Shown in pieces: positions 27,596-45,577 of a stretch of DNA of 64,000 nucleotides. Position 1 is the first letter of the stretch; each line of letters starts with the position of its first letter. The position numbers and the translations under genes were made by a program. The DNA is from Fidelibacterota bacterium (GTDB taxonomy: Bacteria; Fidelibacterota; UBA8477; JABMPR01), in contig JAJRSW010000055.1 of NCBI GenBank assembly GCA_024278595.1, positions 1-64,000 of the forward strand, read 5' to 3'. The notes beneath the pieces are model-generated. The model was not told the DNA's origin and did no database searches. It was given only the letters and a program-made list of their open reading frames with translations.

Positions 27596-30007
27596 TTACT
27601 TAACGAGCAACGCCTTCCCTGAAAGCTTGATACCTTGGGATTTGATCTGATATAGGTAAAGACCTGAAGATAGATTCCCGGCTTCCCAGTGTATTCGATG
27701 TAATCCTGTAGATAAATTCGGTAATTCTTGCCTTTCCAGTAATTGACCCTTCATATTATAGATCGTAAACTCAACATCGTCGATGATTGGGATTGAAAAT
27801 GAAATGTGGGTGCTTCCGTTGAAAGGATTAGGGAAATTGCCATGGAGTTCAAATCCTGCTGGCAGAGTCTGTTTATCTACAGCGTCAGGTGCCTGGTACT
27901 CGTAGGCACCAATATCAGGTGCCAACCCAGCATACTCACTGGAACTCAGATTGACAATAGTATCCCCTTCCCAGACAAAGAAATCGGTTCCGGCATCAAT
28001 TGCCGGAGAATTAGCGGTCAAATAATACGGATTCTCCCCCCCCCCCTGGAACCAGGGATCTGCATCTAGGTTATCTCCCAACCAGTAAAAAGTATTTTCA
28101 CCAACCTGTCCTACCCCTGATTCCCCTCCCTGGATTAAACAGTTTTTAACCACAAGAGTATTTTGACTCATATTATAGGCATTTTCCAGCCAGAACTGAT
28201 TGGGTGTATTTCCATGTACTATGCTGTTAGCAATGACAAGTTCTGCACCACCAAAAAGTGTAATCCCAGCTCCCATGGATTCTGGAAGATGATTATCTGC
28301 AAATGTACTACTGAGCACCTTGACAGCTGTATTATTTACTAATAAAGCAATACCATAGGCAGGACCCCATGCTTGCATGTTCTCGTTAAGTGAGACCTCC
28401 ACATTTGAAACAATATTCACTGGATTTTCGATATGGAATGTTGTATGTATTTGAAATGGGTAATTCAGATACAATTCCCAAATGTCACTGTATACAGCTT
28501 GTGTGTTTCTGAAAATACTGTTGCGTATTTCAGTCCTAGCACATCCACCAAAAGTTGTATTCAATCGACAGGTATTGTCAATGAACTCAAGACTATCGAA
28601 CAACACACTAGTATTAAGAGGATGGAGCTGTTCAAACCCTTCTGGGAAGCCCACTTGCCCTTGCAGAATTGAGCCCCCATTGTTCTCAGTGAACCGTATG
28701 TTCCTATATTCAGCATCAATGTTCTCAAATATTCGAACAGCACGTGGTTCTCCAGTACGAGCACACCCTTTAATAGTTAAATTTGATATCCTGTAATGAT
28801 TGTCAAACCATGCCAACATTAAGTTCCGCTCATTTTCCCCATCGAGAATCGTTAGTTCCTGCCCCGCTCCAATCAGATCTACACCAGTTCGAATATTTAA
28901 TGGAAAGAATTGACCATCTGAGGGTGAATATACCCCCTCTTCAATGTAGATTCTCCTACGTATTGTGCTGTCACTTTCGATAATTGTAAGGGCATGCTGG
29001 ATTGTTTTCAGGGGATCCTCGGATATAAGCCCTGAATTTTGATTGTCACCTGTTGGACTCACATACAGATCGTGAGCAACCTTCTCAAAGTAGGCATGGT
29101 CCATTGTCAGGTTCAGCCCATCTGGCCAAACATTGGAGCTCTGGTCAGGCAAATCTATGGTGAATGTGTCAAGAGGAATGCTGAGAGAATCCGTGAATAT
29201 CATTCCAACACTTATGTCATTATTGTATCCCGCATAATTATTATAAATACTGCACTTATTAATTGCATCAAACTCAGGATTGGCTGAGGGTGCAATCCCT
29301 ATCCCACCACCACTAAAAGTGCCAGCTTGATTTGAGTGAACAGACAATCCTGAAAGAAGCGGAGCTGAATCATATGATATACTGATTCCACCTGCAGATC
29401 CAATTACAGAGGTAGAATTATGCTTGATGGTGCAGAACACGATTGACGGGCTACTGTATTGAATACGAATACCCCCTCCATATACAATCCCAGCGCTTCC
29501 ATCATTTGGGGAAATAAAACCATTCTGAATAGTGAAACCTATTAGCTGGCAGGTCCTATTTTCACCATTGGTGATTGTCACTACCCGCCCCGAATGAGCC
29601 CCATCCAGAATTGTATTATTGATATAAGTCTCATCCTCTGTAAAAAGATAGCGCGAGGTGAGGACTACATTCTTTCCGTTGAAATTGATATTTTCATAAT
29701 AGGTACTCGGTTCCACCAGGATGGTGTCCCCATGGTTAGCGCCATCGATGGCATCCTGGACATGAATAAAGTGACCACCCGGTTCCGGTTGAACGATCCA
29801 GGTTGTGGCGAAAGCTTGTGAAAGAGAATATAATATAAATAACACAGCAAAAACATGCTTTTGCCCGCTTGCGCATAACTTCGTATGGGCAGCTAGAGTA
29901 CGCTGAGACCGCAATGTATTATTGTTATTAATTCTCAACCTAACCTGAATAATCCATAGCCACGAAGTCACGAAGGCACAAAGTTTTAAAAAATATATGC
30001 TTAGCAA
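27596..30007 (-). CDS. Secreted right-handed beta-helix protein with T9SS type A sorting domain
   Basis: The open frame encodes up to 803 residues. From the signal peptide (HVFAVLFILYSLSQAFA) on, it contains a parallel beta-helix with repeated GGGI/NNT-type rungs and a DUF1565-like part (LYVSPTGDNQNSGLISEDPL...GVYSPSDGQFFP). A second beta-helix follows, and the last 80-90 residues are a sorting domain (NFPNPFNGSTHISFSIP, then LSSGLYLYQIKS...GKALLVK). Such proteins are exported by T9SS and trimmed by PorU; the ligand is unknown. The first about 20 codons (from 30007) come from the dispersed repeat and are doubtful. In-frame TTG at 29914 is an alternative. An ATG at 29876 would give a clean signal peptide only if one base in an A5 run (29849-29853) is removed. 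Confidence 0.8.
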   Translation of the reverse strand: MLSIYFLKLCAFVTSWLWIIQVRLRINNNNTLRSQRTLAAHTKLCASGQKHVFAVLFILYSLSQAFATTWIVQPEPGGHFIHVQDAIDGANHGDTILVEPSTYYENINFNGKNVVLTSRYLFTEDETYINNTILDGAHSGRVVTITNGENRTCQLIGFTIQNGFISPNDGSAGIVYGGGIRIQYSSPSIVFCTIKHNSTSVIGSAGGISISYDSAPLLSGLSVHSNQAGTFSGGGIGIAPSANPEFDAINKCSIYNNYAGYNNDISVGMIFTDSLSIPLDTFTIDLPDQSSNVWPDGLNLTMDHAYFEKVAHDLYVSPTGDNQNSGLISEDPLKTIQHALTIIESDSTIRRRIYIEEGVYSPSDGQFFPLNIRTGVDLIGAGQELTILDGENERNLMLAWFDNHYRISNLTIKGCARTGEPRAVRIFENIDAEYRNIRFTENNGGSILQGQVGFPEGFEQLHPLNTSVLFDSLEFIDNTCRLNTTFGGCARTEIRNSIFRNTQAVYSDIWELYLNYPFQIHTTFHIENPVNIVSNVEVSLNENMQAWGPAYGIALLVNNTAVKVLSSTFADNHLPESMGAGITLFGGAELVIANSIVHGNTPNQFWLENAYNMSQNTLVVKNCLIQGGESGVGQVGENTFYWLGDNLDADPWFQGGGENPYYLTANSPAIDAGTDFFVWEGDTIVNLSSSEYAGLAPDIGAYEYQAPDAVDKQTLPAGFELHGNFPNPFNGSTHISFSIPIIDDVEFTIYNMKGQLLERQELPNLSTGLHRIHWEAGNLSSGLYLYQIKSQGIKLSGKALLVK

Positions 30008-30199: not shown

Positions 30200-32386
30200 T
30201 TATTTTATCAACATCACTTTTTGGGTTGACTGGTAGTCTCCGGTTTTGAAAATGATAAAATACAAACCGGAATCCTGGGTATTGGCATTCCAGGTCAATT
30301 CATGTTGTCCTCTGGACTGCTCACCTCGATACAGGTTTTCAACCACCCGCCCTTGTATGTTGTACACCACCACTGAAACAAGTGATTTCCTGGTCAACTC
30401 ATAGCGTAACCTGGTACTGGGATTGAAGGGATTTGGATAGCAGGCAAGCAAGGATGTAGATGTGATCATAGGTTCTGGACTCTTTTCCATATCTGCATGA
30501 TAAACCACAAACCCACCCTCTGTCACATCACGTTTCAGGCTGCTCAGCGTAAAGTGCTCCCGGAAGGTCTGTCCAGGAGCATTATCCGTCTCCGGGTTTC
30601 CAGTTCCTTTGGCTAATCCAGCATCTCTGATAACCTGAAAGCTGATCTCATCCATTGATTGGCTACCGTTGTAGGCTAGCATATAGACTGGGAATTCTGT
30701 TACGGGTTGGGCACCAATACAGTCATCGCCGATAAAGATACCTATTTCGGTTACGGATTCAGAATCCTCAATCGTATCAATTGCCAGAGCTGAATAGTCA
30801 TTCAACTCCTGCACCTCAAAGGAACCACCGGCCAGAGCCAGTTCACCTCCAGGAGGAGGACCACCACCGGTGTTGTAGGTCATAAAAATGGAAGCACCAG
30901 GACTTAAGGTGAGCATATACATCTCACCGTAGTCAAGGGTCCGACAAGGACCGGTGGGTGATGAGCAACTGCTATAGATCCACTTAGTACCCTTCTTAAA
31001 CATATACCAGTCCTGGGCTTTAAGTGATACCAGGCGATCCAATACATTGGCTGGCAGGGCATCCAAAGGTTCCTGGTCTTCTTGAATAAAGTAGGAGACC
31101 CAGTTCTCACCCTGGTTAAGAGTTATCTGAGTTTCTGAAGCTACCCTGGTACCCACGGCCTGGAGGTTATAGTAATCTGCCTCTTCTGACATGAGGAGTT
31201 TATAACCAGCAATGCTGGCTAAATCGATGTCGGGATCCCATCCAGTTCCTTCACTATACAATGTGAAGCCACCACTATAATCAACCCTTTGAGCATTGGG
31301 TGAAACAGTTTCTAATACAGTTGTTATAGAAGTATTATCAACCTCCAGTACAGGGAAACCCACCCAGTTCCAGCTACTGCTCAACTGCTTAACTTCTACT
31401 GTGGAAGCATTAACATTAAAATCCGGAAACACTACAGCATTCCCCGTTCGAGGTAGATAGACCAGATCTCGATTATCTAATTCTGTCCAGAATGCGGAAT
31501 GAACCAATTCCTGACTTGACACGGCATTAAAGCCCAGATGAGAGATACTGGAATAATATAAAGTGTGTTCATAATTCTCAATGTATGGGCTTGAGTCTGG
31601 ATATATAGCCCTACGAAAAGCCCAGATAGCCCTTCCATCGCTAAAGGTGAAGTTCAAGTGGCTTTCATTGGTGATATAAAGAAAATATGAATCGGTCAGT
31701 GCATTTTTAAGTCCCTGCAGCACATCACCATCCTCGCCCAGAATATTTTGCATAAGCCAGCAGAAATAGAGTTCTGAATCAATGACATGTTCAAATCCTT
31801 CAGGAGTACTCCAATCACCACCACAACCAGCTTCATCAAAAGTCTGCAATCCACCATGGGCAGCTATCCAGGTCGCATCTATAAGATCACGTAATTCGGT
31901 TTTCTCATCGATCGTTCCGTTGTGGGTAAAAGTGTAGGTTATTCCTGGCTCATACCAAACCCAGGGATGGGGATTATCAGGGTAATCCTCATTCGCTCCA
32001 CTACCACACCCGGAAGAGGCTTTACGGAGATGACTCATTACGGTGGTAATATTTTCAGCAGCCATAATTTCAGATTGGGCATTGTTGTAATCAGTTGCTT
32101 GGTCATGGTTAGCGGCATTTCCGTTTCCCCGAAACACCAAACCAAGATTGTTATCCGGACTAAATCTTTCGTTCTGATAGGCTAACATTGCCCATCCGGT
32201 AGGATGATACTGACCTTGCGTTTGAAAATCATCCCCAAAGCCTTGAAATCTTGTTCCTATAGTGCCTGCAGTAAGCACTTCCCCGGCATTCGCCTGCATG
32301 GAAAACAGTCTGGAAGCAAACACATTGGATTGCATAAGACCCGAAAGAAGAATAATGAGAGTCATTATCTTTGAAATTCGTTTCAT
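30200..32386 (-). CDS. Secreted class II glutamine-amidotransferase-like (Ntn hydrolase fold) T9SS cargo
   Basis: A 728-residue protein with signal peptide (residues 1-24, cleavage after NVFA). An N-terminal domain of about 260 residues resembles class II amidotransferases of the YafJ type: RLFSMQANAG at the mature start, HPTGWAMLAYQ (61-71), HLRKASSG (119-126, the substrate-binding Arg region), NPHPWV (138-143) and THNGTI (154-159, Asn-Gly oxyanion hole). The catalytic N-terminal Cys of the family is replaced by Ser25, which would become residue 1 after signal cleavage. A beta-rich middle and a T9SS sorting domain (CYPNPFNPSTRLRYEL, SGLYFIIF, KVMLIK) follow. Substrate is unknown. It could hydrolyse amides outside the cell or be a non-catalytic fold. 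Confidence 0.75.
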   Translation of the reverse strand: MKRISKIMTLIILLSGLMQSNVFASRLFSMQANAGEVLTAGTIGTRFQGFGDDFQTQGQYHPTGWAMLAYQNERFSPDNNLGLVFRGNGNAANHDQATDYNNAQSEIMAAENITTVMSHLRKASSGCGSGANEDYPDNPHPWVWYEPGITYTFTHNGTIDEKTELRDLIDATWIAAHGGLQTFDEAGCGGDWSTPEGFEHVIDSELYFCWLMQNILGEDGDVLQGLKNALTDSYFLYITNESHLNFTFSDGRAIWAFRRAIYPDSSPYIENYEHTLYYSSISHLGFNAVSSQELVHSAFWTELDNRDLVYLPRTGNAVVFPDFNVNASTVEVKQLSSSWNWVGFPVLEVDNTSITTVLETVSPNAQRVDYSGGFTLYSEGTGWDPDIDLASIAGYKLLMSEEADYYNLQAVGTRVASETQITLNQGENWVSYFIQEDQEPLDALPANVLDRLVSLKAQDWYMFKKGTKWIYSSCSSPTGPCRTLDYGEMYMLTLSPGASIFMTYNTGGGPPPGGELALAGGSFEVQELNDYSALAIDTIEDSESVTEIGIFIGDDCIGAQPVTEFPVYMLAYNGSQSMDEISFQVIRDAGLAKGTGNPETDNAPGQTFREHFTLSSLKRDVTEGGFVVYHADMEKSPEPMITSTSLLACYPNPFNPSTRLRYELTRKSLVSVVVYNIQGRVVENLYRGEQSRGQHELTWNANTQDSGLYFIIFKTGDYQSTQKVMLIK

Positions 32387-32855
32387 TTAATCAACTCCTT
32401 ACAAGTAAATTAACATTTTATTTACCAAATGCACATGCTTGCATTCAGTAATCACTGTTGCTCAACTAAATGAGATTCTTGTCAAACAGTATGGATTAAA
32501 ACTAGAAGAAAAGATTGTGGTTTTCTGGACCAAAGAAATCCAGTTGCCACACTTCAACAGGTATAGACTGAAATTCAGGAAAGTGTATTCAGGGAAGGTC
32601 AATGATTTAGCTAATTTTTATTTGGGTAAATTTTCACCCCAGAAATAACACAGATACTCAATTAAAAGGGGAAATCTAGGGGTTGCAGAATTATCCGAAG
32701 CAGACTGATTTAAATCTCTTACATAACATACTCAGTTCACTCATAATCTATTACTTGCCCTTGTCACTAATAAACTTAGGTACGGAACATTTTGCTGACG
32801 TACTGATACATGATTATATCTTGTGTTATTGGGGGGCAGGAGTTGGATAGGAGAC
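32387..32855. other. AT-rich intergenic region
   Basis: About 470 bp between two minus-strand cargo genes. It holds the leader of the amidotransferase-like gene, an open frame without credible start (32439-32648, rejected) and, at 32804-32855, the 3' flank shared with the relic at 27143. No terminator is obvious. Confidence 0.4.
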
Positions 32856-35800
32856 TTATCGCAAATATACCATCTTCACTACACTCGAATAATCACTTGC
32901 TCGAAGACGGGCAAAATACATCCCGGCAGCGACCTGTCGACCGACTTTATCTACCCCGTTCCACTGTAATGAGTAGTAACCAGCCTCCTGGCTTGACTTT
33001 TCGTAGTCCCAAACACTGCGACCCAATATGTCAAAGATTGAAAGTGTCACATCTGCAGTTTCTGGTAGCTCATATTTGATTGTAGTTGTAGGATTGAATG
33101 GATTTGGGTAATTCTGCCAGAGGGCATATTCAGCTGGTAATTCTGGACCGTTTACAACCCCGACCAGCACATCAACATTGATGGGTATGATGAGATCGCG
33201 CATCTCAGGATCATTATTTATAAAATGGATCAAGGCACTACTTTCACCAAGCGGTAAAGAAGCCGCATTGATTACTAAAGAGATCATTCTACTCTCTCCG
33301 GGACCAACAGTATCAGAAACAGTAGAGGCTTGGATCCAGTTCGCCCGGTGAGGAATGTGAATATATCCCATACCTGAGTCGGGCATTATTTCGCCCGCTG
33401 GAGGCCCAAAAATATAGCTCATTGCACCCAAGTTCCACCCTGGTGTTGGTCCAAAAATTGATTTGGGAATTCCAAGTAACAATTCGGTTGAAAAATCCTC
33501 ATACTCAAGAGTAGATGGAATTATATCGGTGTGCTCATGGGTTTCATGATTGTAAATTGAAACATCATGATTAAACCTGAAGCGGAGAGTACTCTCAACA
33601 CCGAGAGACCAAGGTATATAAGTAGTATCACCGATCACAATTCCAGTTTCAGGATTCATATCCGTATCAATAAAGAACAGAATCTCACCATAATACAAAG
33701 GGTCATATCCGACAAGATCGAAAAGTACTTCATCTCCGCATAAACCAATAGTTAATGACCTTAAATCTTGTGCAGCTTCCTCATCAAATGAGTCATTATA
33801 TGTTGGCCCCCAAAATGTACCATGCTCATATCTACTCAGATTATGTGAATTAGCTGGTGAGTTTTCCATGTAGTTTATAGCATAAAACTCAAAGTCAAGC
33901 TCACTTTGCCCGAGGTTAGTAATGCTAAAGGAATACTGTGTCGTTTCATCTTCCTCTACCTCTAAAGTAATTGACTCTATGTCCACTTGGATCACAGGAG
34001 CTTGGAGTCCGATCGCTAGAGTTGATACTTCAACCAATAGCTCATCTGGATCATTTGTAGAGAATACTATACTCCCAGACTGATCACTGATGCTCAATGG
34101 GTTGAATACAAATGTAAACACTAGAGAAGAGTTTTGTGCTATATTTGCTGATGTTGGCGTTACTGATATATCGGTGCCAGGAAGCTCAACACCGAAAATA
34201 CTCAAGTCACCAAAGCCCTTATTGAAAACCTCTATTTCGAGAGTATCCGGATAACCGATAAAGGCTTCCACAAAACTTAGATTATTGGCATCAGCCTCAT
34301 AATCCGGAGCTCCAATTACAGTCAAAGTGACAGGTATCGAGATGATATTCGCTGTTGGATCATTCGATTCGATCTCAATGTTCACCTGATATTCACCACC
34401 CGGTAAAGCACTTGCGTTCAGTAAAATATCCTCAGAATGACTACCAAAGGTGTACTGTACATCAAGCATAGGAGTATAACTAATCCAGTTAGGTGGAAGA
34501 AATGTTCTCCAATAAGAAAAACCAAAACCTTCATCATCGGTACTCCAACTATCGAACCAAAACTCCAGATACAGATCATCATCCTCTAAGTGAGCTGATA
34601 TGACAGTATCCAGGAGACCAAAGGGGTTTGCATTTGGAGAGGTAGGATATTGAGCATGATACAAAGGTCCGATTGCCCAACCAGTTCTTGCAGGTGAAAA
34701 CATACCCACTTCTGATTCCCATCTGGCATTGAACAAACCCCCATATCCTTCTCTGGCTAACCAAACATTGGGAGTGATTCGATCCTGATTTTCTGGTAGC
34801 AACCCATCCACCCAGTTCTGTCTCTCAAAGAAGATTGTTGGACTACCAAGACTATCCAGCAAGCTACTCGTCCACCCTAGAACACCTTCTCCAGTCGAAT
34901 TATCTATTGTAAGCAGGAAGTTGGAGCTTCCACCAGTATAGAGTGTATCAGAAATAACCTCAGGAGTGACCACCATATTTGGTGGAAACAGTGTTACCCC
35001 TGAAAGTGTGAGTGATTGTGGACTTTGGGCTGTGTCATTACTAGTGATTATGAGGGATTCTGTGAACCAGGCTTGATCTAAGGGATCACAGATAACTTCA
35101 AAGTTTGAACCTTCTCCTGGTGCTAGTGATATGGGTGTGAAATCAGTCTCGAACATTCCGTGGGAAAACTCTACACTGGAAATTTCCAAGGAATCAATGC
35201 CCAAGCCATAATTCATTATCTCAACCAGTGTTGTTTCAGGATAGCCAATGTAAACTTCACCAAACAAAATACTCAACTCTGGAATAGTAACTAAGTTTGG
35301 ACCAAAGGGTAGATGGTAGAGTGAATCCACTCCACGTTCACTAAGCACGTGATCATAGAGTCTGATGTCATCGATAACACCGTGCCAATTCTCTCCTTGC
35401 TCAGGATTTGATCCGATCCAGAGTGGGTAATCGCTCGTCTGAATATCAAATAACAGAGCAGGATGATTGAGCTCCAGCTGTCCGTTGACATAGCACTTCG
35501 CCCTTTGAATGGAATGGTCGAAGGTAACAGCAAGGTGGGTCCACTCCCCTGGTTCTATTGATCCAAATGTTATCGCTTGCCCACCGACACAAAATTTCCA
35601 TTCCGAATTCCCAATTGTAGATAAGCTGTATGTTTCAGGTGTATCAACATCGAAGTCAGATTCCGCTTTAACCAGGATGGTGTGGTCGGTATCCGTTGCA
35701 CCTTCATCCACAAAGACCCATGTTTCAATAGTGAGCTCTCCGGTTATATCAAGGCTCGCAGCATCAGCTATTTCGATGAAGTCATCGATCCCATTAAAGG

Positions 35801-35993
35801 AGTGGGCGTAGTTGTCATTACCGAAACGATCCGGTGTAGGTGTGATACTAAAGTTTATTGCATCATTCCCATACCCGCTGATGTCATCAGTATTTCCGTA
35901 GAAGGGCCAGAAACCGACCAGATCTGCATACAACATCGACTGGACGATCAATAATCCTAGTGTGATTCTAATTACATATGTTGATATCTTCAT
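32856..35993 (-). CDS. LamG-domain, ASPM/SPD-2/Hydin-like repeat protein with T9SS sorting domain
   Basis: A 1045-residue secreted protein. The ATG at 35993 is chosen because AGGGGTGG lies just upstream; the frame is open 33 bp further. After a signal peptide (MKISTYVIRITLGLLIVQSMLYA) comes a LamG/concanavalin-like domain (LVGFWPFYGNTDDISGYGND ... WHGVIDDIRLYDHVLS, about 24-230). Several choice-of-anchor-D/Hydin-type Ig repeats follow (PELSILFGEVYIGYPETTLV, repeated as ADANNLSFVEAFIGYPDTLE), then a sorting domain (LWQNYPNPFNPTTTIKYELP ... YSSVVKMVYLR). Probably a surface adhesin or glycan-binding protein. The last is inference; no enzyme motif is seen. Confidence 0.85.
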   Translation of the reverse strand: MKISTYVIRITLGLLIVQSMLYADLVGFWPFYGNTDDISGYGNDAINFSITPTPDRFGNDNYAHSFNGIDDFIEIADAASLDITGELTIETWVFVDEGATDTDHTILVKAESDFDVDTPETYSLSTIGNSEWKFCVGGQAITFGSIEPGEWTHLAVTFDHSIQRAKCYVNGQLELNHPALLFDIQTSDYPLWIGSNPEQGENWHGVIDDIRLYDHVLSERGVDSLYHLPFGPNLVTIPELSILFGEVYIGYPETTLVEIMNYGLGIDSLEISSVEFSHGMFETDFTPISLAPGEGSNFEVICDPLDQAWFTESLIITSNDTAQSPQSLTLSGVTLFPPNMVVTPEVISDTLYTGGSSNFLLTIDNSTGEGVLGWTSSLLDSLGSPTIFFERQNWVDGLLPENQDRITPNVWLAREGYGGLFNARWESEVGMFSPARTGWAIGPLYHAQYPTSPNANPFGLLDTVISAHLEDDDLYLEFWFDSWSTDDEGFGFSYWRTFLPPNWISYTPMLDVQYTFGSHSEDILLNASALPGGEYQVNIEIESNDPTANIISIPVTLTVIGAPDYEADANNLSFVEAFIGYPDTLEIEVFNKGFGDLSIFGVELPGTDISVTPTSANIAQNSSLVFTFVFNPLSISDQSGSIVFSTNDPDELLVEVSTLAIGLQAPVIQVDIESITLEVEEDETTQYSFSITNLGQSELDFEFYAINYMENSPANSHNLSRYEHGTFWGPTYNDSFDEEAAQDLRSLTIGLCGDEVLFDLVGYDPLYYGEILFFIDTDMNPETGIVIGDTTYIPWSLGVESTLRFRFNHDVSIYNHETHEHTDIIPSTLEYEDFSTELLLGIPKSIFGPTPGWNLGAMSYIFGPPAGEIMPDSGMGYIHIPHRANWIQASTVSDTVGPGESRMISLVINAASLPLGESSALIHFINNDPEMRDLIIPINVDVLVGVVNGPELPAEYALWQNYPNPFNPTTTIKYELPETADVTLSIFDILGRSVWDYEKSSQEAGYYSLQWNGVDKVGRQVAAGMYFARLRASDYSSVVKMVYLR

Positions 35994-36100
35994 AATCCAC
36001 CCCTGTTTAGGTTGGTAAGTTAGCACCGATCCACATCAATTCTTCCAACTAATTGTAGACCGGTGCTGATATTACGAGGACTCGTTATTTCAGAAGGAGA

Positions 36101-42323: not shown

Positions 42324-45300
42324 TTACTCAGGAATTGATCGTCTTAGTTCAATGGACATCTGTTCACTACTGGTCTGCTGAGGATCAATTAATGTGCCCC
42401 AGACATACGCCGTGAAAGGATCATAGGATGTCACTTCAGGTGGGTCTGCATTATTGAAGTTTGGTGTGCATAAAGCCCCATCAAAATATACCACAACTTG
42501 AGCTGTCCCCTGCTCATCGGTCACGGCGATTGGCGGATCGATCGTGTTGCCATCCAGGTCTTCAAAATGATCTGCACCAATGGCCTGGAACAGGATCCGA
42601 CCGCCAAAGATAGGATTATTATAATAATCATACAGCCCAGCTGTAAGAGTCACAGGCACTGGATCGGGACCACCCATTCCAAAATCGTAGAAAGATATGG
42701 AGGGCGTAACAGTCAAAGTCCCCGGATAGAATGGTAATATCTGGGCGCTGTCAGCATCGGCATTTACAAATGTGGCAATGGTATCGCCATCAGCACCCCA
42801 AGTTCGGGCTATCACATAAACCGTATCAAAAATCACGCCCGAATTATAGTAGATCTTACTCCAGGCCATACCGTGATAGGCATCACCAGCAATGTTTTCA
42901 TTATTGGTAAATGATTCACCAATAACATTGGCAACACTATCAGGGATGATGGACCAGTAGACTTGGGTACTGTCTTCAACAGGATTGGTAAACTCATCCC
43001 AGACCAGAGCGGCGACTTCCATTTGATAGAATCCACCACCAATCTGTTCGATTGAAACCACATCAACGTCAGCATTGATATGAGCTGGCAAGCCGGCTCG
43101 GATCGTGACAGGCATTCCGGTCGAAACGATGGGGATCCCATCTGGCGTTTCGGTACTGACTGTGAGCTGAACCGGACCTGATTCAGTGCCACTATTTAAG
43201 GTCACACTGGCAGTTCCATAATTCGTGGCCACCGTAACTGAGGTTCCTTCACCATTTATATTGGAGCCAGCTGGTGTCGGACCGATCTGAAAGGTTACAT
43301 CATAGGAAATGTCAACCAGTTCACCGCGCGCATCGCGCACTTCGGCAAAGAGCGTGGTGGATTCAGCACCCCAGCCACCCTGAATGACAATATAATTCGG
43401 AGCAACTGGCGGGATGATCACGTAGGCCGCCTCCATGGGTCTGACCCGGATCAGAACTGAATCGGTGGCGATACCAGAATAGGCATAGACCTTGGCGATC
43501 CCGGATGAATCACCCATGGTAAATACTGCGGTTGCATGTCCGGCGGCATCGGTGACCGTAAAGGGTGTAATAAATCCGATATCGGTGGAAAAAGTCACTT
43601 CAGTACCAGCATCAACGGCAAATCCATTGGAATCAGAAATAAATAGATCCAGATCAGAGCTATTGACCTCAGGCTGCGATATTGGTGGTAATTCGTCCTG
43701 ACTGGCTGACATGTCAATAAATGCTGGAACTCTAGGTGGCTCGAATTCATTTTGGCGGATCTCAACTGCCACAGTATTTGAGTGTACACCCCAGAAGGGG
43801 TGTTCGACCTGCATGGAGATTGTTGCAGTCGCTGGTCCGGGACCAACAGCCCCAAGATCCGAAAAGTCCGTCTCGGCCACACCAGCGTTGTTGGTATAGA
43901 TGGGAGAGGCTACAGTTCCAATATCAGATGAGAAATTCACCTGAATACTATCTACTGGATTACCATTAATGTCTCTGACAACAGCGTAGACACGTGCCAG
44001 TGTCAAGCCATTATCATAGTAAATGAATTCCTGATAGCTAAAGGCATTGATCTCATAGTCCGTCATGGGGACAAATTCGATATCACTGGTTATGTGGGGG
44101 ATGTTATCATCACCGGCAATAAATGATTCTACGCTGACAGTCCCGCTTGATCCGGGATTAAGCGTAAAGGTAACCTTGGCAGTACCGGTTGAATCACTGA
44201 CCATGGTAGCAGAAGAAAGATAGCCCAGGTTTTGACCGGCCGTCACCTGAAAATCTACGGTCACACCCTCCAGGGCCACGCCGCGATTATCTCTTACCTG
44301 GGCTCGAATATCTGCTGTAAAGGCCGAATCCACATCGGTTAACAGGACCTGACCACTAATTGGTTGGGTTATCACATAAAAATTTGGTTCAGTGGCATCA
44401 TCCAACAGACGCACCTGTACATTCACCGAATCTGTTACATCCCCATAAAAGGGGTGCGTGACCAAACCGCTTATTGTGGCAGAGACATCCGTTGTGTAGG
44501 TATCTCCCAGATCTGAGAAATTGGTCTGAACCACACCGGCATCATCGGTAACTTTGGGCGAGTTTATAGTTCCGTAATTTGAGGAAAAATTGACAACTAC
44601 CCCTTCAATGGGATTCCCTTCGGTATCCCTTACAATGCCCACAATACGACTCGTGGTGACACCCTGATCGGCATAGATGATATTATCCAGAGTTGAAACT
44701 GTCAGGTCAAATGATTGGATGGCCACTGCCTGGATATAGGCTGTATCCGCAAAAGCAATTGCAGACGCACCAGCTGCCCGGGCCAGAGTTTGGCTGCCAA
44801 AGTCATAAACACCCGGATTATCACGCATGACCCTGGCCATGGCATCACCGGTGATGGTGGCCAGTACCCGCGCTTCGCCCAAACGTCCCATGTTGGTATG
44901 AAACTGTGTAGAACTTAGTCCAATGGCATTGGTAGAATCCAGCGCTGTACTAATATAGCCCAGTCCGCTTTCGTCTGAGAGCACCTGGTAATTGACCTCT
45001 ACATTCTCTACCGGTACGCCATTCGCATCAAATACGTGTGAAAAGATGGTGATCATGCTCGATTCATCAATTGCTTGAACTTCGATCATACCATCACTTG
45101 GCTGCGTATCAACAAAAAAGGTGTCAACCAGAGCTTCCATGGGCAGGACCTGGACATAGATCGTATCACGAACGATATTCGTGCCATCCGAATACTGACC
45201 TACGATCCTCACCGCATCGGCAGCTTGCCCATCATCATCGAAACTGGAAATCGCCCGACCGGTTTGATCGGTGTTTACCGTACCTGCCATCTTGCCCTGA

Positions 45301-45533
45301 GCCGGGAAGAATGTAATACTTGATCCGCTTTTGGGGACACCATCAACATCGGTAAGATAGGCTGTGATCCGGGCCAGTGATTTACCATTGTCAGCGTAAA
45401 TGACATCCTTATCCGTTGACAAGGTCAGCAAATAGGTGATGACGTCTTTCTCTGGCGGGGTGGGTGTTCTGGAGTCACATCCAAAGAACACCAGGACTGA
45501 GAGCAGGCTAATAACTAATACTCTAAATTTCAT
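42324..45533 (-). CDS. Giant Big-1 (invasin/intimin-type) Ig-repeat lipoprotein
   Basis: A 1069-residue lipoprotein. The ATG at 45533 (MKFRVLVISLLSVLVFFGCDS) has AAGGAG 7 nt upstream. The lipobox VFFGC places Cys17 as the acylation site. The rest is a chain of bacterial Ig-like domains of the Big-1 type, each with NFSS..GT and a D..G.A...FSDLG pattern. Examples are VRDTEGNPIEGVVVNFSSNY and VRDINGNPVDSIQVNFSSDI, which repeat at about 230-residue intervals with other domains between. It is likely an outer-membrane, surface-exposed stalk. Its place between pilQ and pilB suggests a pilus-linked adhesive or secretin-associated role, which is inference. A decayed copy of its last codons lies at 38236. 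Confidence 0.82.
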   Translation of the reverse strand: MKFRVLVISLLSVLVFFGCDSRTPTPPEKDVITYLLTLSTDKDVIYADNGKSLARITAYLTDVDGVPKSGSSITFFPAQGKMAGTVNTDQTGRAISSFDDDGQAADAVRIVGQYSDGTNIVRDTIYVQVLPMEALVDTFFVDTQPSDGMIEVQAIDESSMITIFSHVFDANGVPVENVEVNYQVLSDESGLGYISTALDSTNAIGLSSTQFHTNMGRLGEARVLATITGDAMARVMRDNPGVYDFGSQTLARAAGASAIAFADTAYIQAVAIQSFDLTVSTLDNIIYADQGVTTSRIVGIVRDTEGNPIEGVVVNFSSNYGTINSPKVTDDAGVVQTNFSDLGDTYTTDVSATISGLVTHPFYGDVTDSVNVQVRLLDDATEPNFYVITQPISGQVLLTDVDSAFTADIRAQVRDNRGVALEGVTVDFQVTAGQNLGYLSSATMVSDSTGTAKVTFTLNPGSSGTVSVESFIAGDDNIPHITSDIEFVPMTDYEINAFSYQEFIYYDNGLTLARVYAVVRDINGNPVDSIQVNFSSDIGTVASPIYTNNAGVAETDFSDLGAVGPGPATATISMQVEHPFWGVHSNTVAVEIRQNEFEPPRVPAFIDMSASQDELPPISQPEVNSSDLDLFISDSNGFAVDAGTEVTFSTDIGFITPFTVTDAAGHATAVFTMGDSSGIAKVYAYSGIATDSVLIRVRPMEAAYVIIPPVAPNYIVIQGGWGAESTTLFAEVRDARGELVDISYDVTFQIGPTPAGSNINGEGTSVTVATNYGTASVTLNSGTESGPVQLTVSTETPDGIPIVSTGMPVTIRAGLPAHINADVDVVSIEQIGGGFYQMEVAALVWDEFTNPVEDSTQVYWSIIPDSVANVIGESFTNNENIAGDAYHGMAWSKIYYNSGVIFDTVYVIARTWGADGDTIATFVNADADSAQILPFYPGTLTVTPSISFYDFGMGGPDPVPVTLTAGLYDYYNNPIFGGRILFQAIGADHFEDLDGNTIDPPIAVTDEQGTAQVVVYFDGALCTPNFNNADPPEVTSYDPFTAYVWGTLIDPQQTSSEQMSIELRRSIPE

Positions 45534-45577
45534 GTTAACTCCTTTAGGTCCATGCTTGGTTTGGGTCAAGATCCTGC

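Follow-up and report, generated by a model that had tools for sequence, protein, structure and literature searches.

The 64,000-nucleotide stretch of DNA analysed here (the window) carries on its minus strand a gene for a protein that combines the fold of a class II amidotransferase with a predicted export signal and, at the position of the catalytic Cys, a Ser, and thereby raises the question of whether such a protein is still an enzyme and how its nucleophile would be freed. The fold belongs to an enzyme family that is normally intracellular, here apparently sent to the cell surface, and the swap of Cys for Ser within an otherwise intact active site suggests a working enzyme with a different chemistry. 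The gene and its export signals are as follows.

30200..32386, minus strand: exported GATase_4 / class II amidotransferase-fold protein, Ser type, 728 aa (ORF call, Pfam and family alignment)
32395..32400, minus strand: AAGGAG, Shine-Dalgarno-like, 8 bases before the ATG (direct sequence reading)
32315..32386, minus strand: predicted signal peptide, residues 1-24, MKRISKIMTLIILLSGLMQSNVFA (rule-based scan and the same position relative to the nucleophile across the family)
32312..32314, minus strand: TCC codon of Ser25, predicted to be the nucleophile at the mature N-terminus; most relatives have Cys here (family and GlmS/PurF alignments)
30212..30439, minus strand: T9SS type A sorting domain (TIGR04183), residues 650-725 (Pfam/NCBIfam)

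The protein is laid out as a signal peptide, a GATase_4 domain (PF13230; E 1.2e-10, 41.2 bits against a curated cut-off of 23), a middle region and a T9SS tail, the last recognized both by Pfam (Por_Secre_tail, E 1.3e-8, above the cut-off) and by NCBIfam (TIGR04183, E 1.4e-11). The original prediction of T9SS-type export agrees with this tail and with the presence in the genome of SprA and of ~95 other T9SS-tail matches; signal peptide, C-terminal sorting domain and translocon, the marks of a T9SS cargo, are all present, and export by this route is plausible. The signal peptide ends in SNVFA and is followed by SRLF, which makes Ser25 the first residue past it. By a simple -3/-1 rule scan combined with family conservation, a cut by signal peptidase between A24 and S25 is the best prediction, in keeping with the proposal that signal cleavage would expose the Ser; two earlier sites in or at the end of the hydrophobic stretch are allowed, and the A24-S25 site alone lies at the normal distance behind the core. 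The genes neighbouring the GATase gene encode T9SS proteins and cell-division and secretion functions, with no egt genes among them, so that the linkage to egtB/egtD expected of an EgtC of the ergothioneine pathway is absent. The upstream gene at 32856-36026 (minus strand) encodes a T9SS protein with LamG-like lectin and HYDIN/ASH-type Ig domains, and a further gene at 42324-45569 (minus strand), flanked on one side by a secretin gene and on the other by type II secretion/type IV pilus genes of the ATPase and F type, encodes a 1081-aa protein with Big_1/invasin-like Ig domains.

Whether the domain has kept the means of catalysis depends on its fold and on the following elements.

31412..32314, minus strand: Ntn / class II amidotransferase domain, about residues 25-325 (AF2 model and PDB fold matches)
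32024..32032, minus strand: H119-L120-R121, in which R121 is the equivalent of E. coli GlmS Arg73 (family alignment and mapping onto the genome's own GlmS)
31964..31972, minus strand: P139-H140-P141 motif (family and GlmS/PurF alignments)
31916..31924, minus strand: H155-N156-G157, oxyanion-hole loop (family and GlmS/PurF alignments)
31772..31780, minus strand: D203-S204-E205, in which D203 is the equivalent of E. coli GlmS Asp123 (family and GlmS/PurF alignments)
30440..31411, minus strand: middle region, about residues 326-649, beta-rich, without a Pfam match

The AF2 model of the mature domain has a mean pLDDT of 90.5 and a pTM of 0.91, with an average of 97 over the first ten residues, and its best fold matches in the PDB are structures of EgtC in the apo form and in complex with glutamine or the natural substrate, followed by 1te5, 1xff (the GlmS glutaminase domain) and 3mdn. 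The amidotransferase fold claimed from the sequence is thus borne out by the structural comparison, and a search of PDB sequences with the family profile likewise retrieves 3mdn (2e-14) and 1te5 (3e-13). The best hit of a phmmer search of the PDB with the whole protein, ArtB at E 0.42, was set aside as a chance match. All three landmarks named in the original prediction (HLRKAS, NPHPW and HNG) are present in the N-terminal domain, and when the protein is aligned with three cytoplasmic members of GATase_4 and with the GlmS and PurF encoded in its genome, Ser25, directly after NVFA, occupies the column of the catalytic Cys, as had been proposed, while R121, N156-G157 and D203 align with conserved residues of the glutamine site. 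In the known structures of E. coli GlmS, Arg73 binds the alpha-carboxylate of glutamine and Asp123 its alpha-amino group. The N-terminal Cys nucleophile that marks class II amidotransferases is absent from the window protein and present in 60 of 68 exported relatives, and the glutamine-binding Arg and Asp and the oxyanion Asn-Gly are present in the window protein itself. With its predicted alpha-beta-beta-alpha fold and a nucleophile placed by the predicted cleavage at the mature N-terminus, the protein falls within the Ntn-hydrolase superfamily.

The exported family came to light in a search of related genomes. A search of genome contigs with the single protein returned no relatives; a search with the family alignment matched 58 of the 245 genomes of the phylum. 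The family is spread through Candidatus Neomarinimicrobiota, a little-known, mostly marine and largely uncultured phylum, with one member in a Delongbacteria MAG. Among the 68 non-identical exported members with the N-terminus present, all from this one phylum and the one outside MAG, the first position past the signal peptide is occupied by Cys 60 times and by Ser eight times, and never by anything else, which answers the concern that the position might hold random residues. Ser occurs in the window protein (L001), L002, L019, L074, L077, L083, L035 and L113. An allowed signal-peptidase site lies exactly before the Ser in all eight (rule-based scan), which speaks against cleavage elsewhere. 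Their active sites are otherwise preserved: HxR, the Gly of HxRxxxxG (G126), PHP and HNG are kept in all eight, and DSE in all seven that are long enough to reach it. Departures at other positions are mild (Lys for Arg26 in two members, Leu for Trp65 in L035 and Thr for Ser125 in some), and H119 and R121 stand in every row of the family alignment (R121 reads X in L103).

Judged from these sequences, export with the nucleophile at the predicted new N-terminus is the rule of the family, and Ser is a recurrent replacement within it. The simplest account of a catalytic column that coincides with the first mature residue would be that export brings the protein to signal peptidase I, which frees a Ser or Cys Ntn nucleophile; autocatalytic cleavage at the nucleophile has probably been replaced by signal peptidase. 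The earlier suggestion of a new maturation route for a Ser-type member therefore stands in part: exposure by signal cleavage is retained, whereas its being peculiar to the Ser protein is not, because most exported relatives have Cys at this site. Pro directly precedes the catalytic Cys in 14 exported Cys members (all ten of L006-L015, together with L022, L024, L025 and L098; for example LFP before CRML), and an acidic residue does so in two, L037 (RAD before CRLW) and L112 (YSE before CDYI), so that a plain signal-peptidase I site does not account for maturation in these 16. In L037 and L112 a normal cut would leave one acidic residue before the Cys, and a further trimming or self-cleavage step may exist. 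A Pro before the Cys suits neither signal peptidase I nor lipoprotein signal peptidase well.

The distribution of Ser over the family tree, which was built without the signal peptide and without the Cys/Ser site itself and contains several long branches, requires six changes between Cys and Ser, at least four of them forced by well-supported branches. A single origin of Ser is rejected under the model used (p-AU 4.7e-6), as is one origin for the window pair L001/L002 together with L019 (p-AU 0.0056); the exact count of origins is uncertain. The Ser codons (TCC, TCA, AGT and AGC) fall into both the TCN and AGY classes and point the same way, to several origins. The outgroup consisted of three cytoplasmic relatives obtained by tblastn of plasmids, which returned weak GATase_4 relatives at 22-30% identity; because these cytoplasmic outgroups have Cys, the direction of change was most likely from Cys to Ser. 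Comparison of the window protein with its orthologue L002, likewise of Ser type, gives a dN/dS of ~0.23 in the domain, which indicates that the domain is maintained.

Maintenance of this kind would fit either an active enzyme or a pseudo-enzyme, and the reading that competes most seriously with an active Ser form is that the Ser members are inactive, with the fold serving as a binder of gamma-glutamyl groups or amides or as a scaffold for a beta-helix protein, and with Ser merely a tolerated first residue. Replacement of Cys by Ser in Cys-type Ntn hydrolases is usually crippling, which counts against an active Ser form, as does the fact that the majority of the family keeps Cys. The naturally Ser-containing SCRN1 stays unprocessed, and a Cys-to-Ser mutant of PLBD2 loses autocleavage (Ntn review, PMC9140057). 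Ser is also generally common after signal peptides, and genomes G001 and G016 each carry one Ser and one Cys member, so that the Ser copy could be a spare. Several independent losses would be expected to yield Ala, Gly, Asp, Thr and others rather than Ser every time, however, and the beta-helix proteins exported alongside have Thr, Ile, Phe or Asp at their predicted first mature position. The remaining landmarks of the active site are unchanged in the Ser members, and the SCRN1 and PLBD2 cases concern self-cleavage, an obstacle that would not apply where signal peptidase makes the N-terminus. With the landmarks kept, Cys or Ser alone at the site and dN/dS at ~0.23, the dead enzyme used as a binder, which the original prediction had offered as its second possibility, is disfavoured, and we regard it as unlikely while still according it appreciable weight.

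The reading that we prefer, and hold to be somewhat probable, is that of a cell-surface gamma-glutamyl amide hydrolase whose nucleophile, Cys in most members and Ser here, is bared by signal peptidase and which acts with a beta-helix partner. The GATase protein would cross the inner membrane by means of its signal peptide, and a cut by signal peptidase I between A24 and S25 would turn the nucleophile into a free N-terminus without any requirement for methionine removal or self-cleavage. The T9SS tail would then carry the protein across the outer membrane and anchor it. At the surface, Ser1 would attack a gamma-glutamyl-type amide with its own alpha-amino group as the base, R121 and D203 would hold the substrate, and N156-G157 would stabilise the oxyanion. 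By analogy with the GlmS and EgtC families, the substrate is most likely some gamma-glutamyl amide, because the residues with which GlmS grips glutamine by its alpha-carboxylate and alpha-amino groups are kept. As the protein carries neither a synthase domain nor an ammonia acceptor, its activity would most likely be that of a glutaminase or a hydrolase of gamma-glutamyl amides.

It is improbable that the protein is instead an active amidotransferase that hands on ammonia or a glutamyl group, with the acceptor held in the middle region or in the beta-helix partner. An acceptor domain normally accompanies class II amidotransferases, and one could be provided by the constant middle region and by the partner, whether linked or fused; no synthase-type domain or nucleotide-binding fold was found, however, by Pfam or by a fold search of the whole protein, and ATP-driven transfer is unlikely outside the cell. 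The whole-protein model has a pLDDT of 80, with a beta-rich middle region for which a fold search with the full-length model gave no specific PDB match; this region is kept in all members of ~730-750 aa and missing from those of ~400 aa. That the family consists of lipoproteins, whose lipidation site is the Cys after the signal peptide and is lost in Ser members, draws on the position of the Cys right after a hydrophobic signal and on a lipobox-like stretch in some members (e.g., VLAC), but is very improbable and was rejected, given that the Cys stands in the GATase catalytic column beside an otherwise intact active site that lipidation would block, that the -2/-1 residues are often F, N, H, K or P and poor for a lipobox, that the +1 residue of the window protein is Ser, and that surface anchoring is already supplied by the T9SS tail.

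Among known systems, the closest to the proposed surface hydrolase are EgtC (the ergothioneine gamma-glutamyl hydrolase) and the DUG3/YafJ-type GATase_4 proteins (PF13230; 4zfj/4zfk/4zfl, 1te5 and 3mdn), which share its Pfam family, its fold, the HxRxxxxG, HPF/HPW, HNG and DSE motifs and a stand-alone, hydrolase-like layout. They are cytoplasmic and begin with Met-Cys, whereas the window protein is exported, longer, T9SS-tailed and of Ser type, with maturation predicted to occur by signal cleavage. The glutaminase domains of GlmS and PurF share the fold and the glutamine-binding residues; unlike them, the window protein has no synthase domain, is exported and has Ser for Cys1. Choloylglycine hydrolases and penicillin V acylases carry a Cys nucleophile that becomes N-terminal after removal of a short leader, and some Gram-negative members are exported; penicillin G acylase and the AHL acylases are exported Ser Ntn hydrolases. 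The former, in which the nucleophile is Cys only (review PMC8066178), belong to another Ntn family and offer a parallel only in the way they work. The latter resemble the window protein in Ser nucleophile and export, but are self-cleaving, have a large insert in the fold and likewise belong to a different Ntn family. SCRN1, a secernin, offers a natural change from Cys to Ser within a Cys Ntn family (PMC9140057); it is cytosolic and unprocessed, in contrast to the exported window protein with its signal-peptidase site before the Ser. Nothing relevant was found in the open-access papers searched on a secreted class II amidotransferase or on signal peptidase exposing an Ntn nucleophile.

A broader proposal, which we advance tentatively and rate at slightly less than an even chance, is that the Ser members form a catalytically active branch within the class II amidotransferase fold, derived from exported Cys enzymes on several occasions, made possible by exposure of the nucleophile through signal peptidase rather than self-cleavage, and working as a surface module with the beta-helix protein. 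Activity of the Ser forms would mean that a fold treated as restricted to Cys can change its catalytic atom in nature, and the repeated swaps would then amount to replicate natural experiments on the reasons for keeping Cys in other places. Handing the making of the N-terminus to signal peptidase would explain the escape from the usual obstacle, the loss of self-cleavage.

The partner invoked in these proposals is encoded directly downstream.

27596..30007, minus strand: exported beta-helix (DUF1565/Beta_helix) protein with a T9SS tail (Pfam and locus comparison)

Its true start is uncertain, and its signal peptide is approximately KHVFAVLFILYSLSQAFA, followed by TTWIVQ. A homologue lies on the same strand directly downstream of every long-type (~730-750 aa) GATase member for which downstream DNA is available, at 14 loci that include a G164 gene split by a contig break, while the short (~400-aa) Cys members examined are without it. 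A phylum-wide profile search with the tail removed placed 16 full-length-type partner loci, one of them split in two pieces, far above the generic beta-helix background, and 14 of these adjoin a long-type GATase gene, on which grounds a chance neighbourhood was rejected; the other two are G000:C84, at a contig end, and G013:C239, without a GATase gene. Genome G219 encodes, as L122, a single 1085-aa protein in which the partner beta-helix is fused to a GATase domain of Ser type (partner-profile match E 1e-94, residues 332-1018). Of the eight Ser members, seven have the partner as a paired gene or as part of a fusion, as against eight Cys members (Fisher p 5e-5, a test that ignores kinship). The conserved gene order and the fusion suggest that the GATase protein would work with the co-encoded beta-helix protein, the two acting together at the cell surface; linked and once fused, the exported beta-helix protein offers a way into an uncharacterised surface system in a phylum that is largely uncultured.

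Individual loci vary around this arrangement. The window's own genome holds a second partner copy (L139:1-1584, G000:C84), cut by the contig start, for which no GATase gene was found in the assembly, and at L137:3535-7077 (G013:C239) a 337-aa lipoprotein-like gene stands beside the partner gene in the place of the GATase gene. The partner gene at L030:3808-6148 (G016:C177) is broken into two frames that overlap and contains a stretch of unknown residues, probably because of a frameshift or a gap in the assembly, and in L140 (G077:C37) the middle region and tail of the GATase protein are joined to a beta-helix piece without the GATase domain. The two gene pairs of G001 (L126:148-9692, G001:C171) lie in tandem as GATase and beta-helix modules, one of Cys type and one of Ser type.
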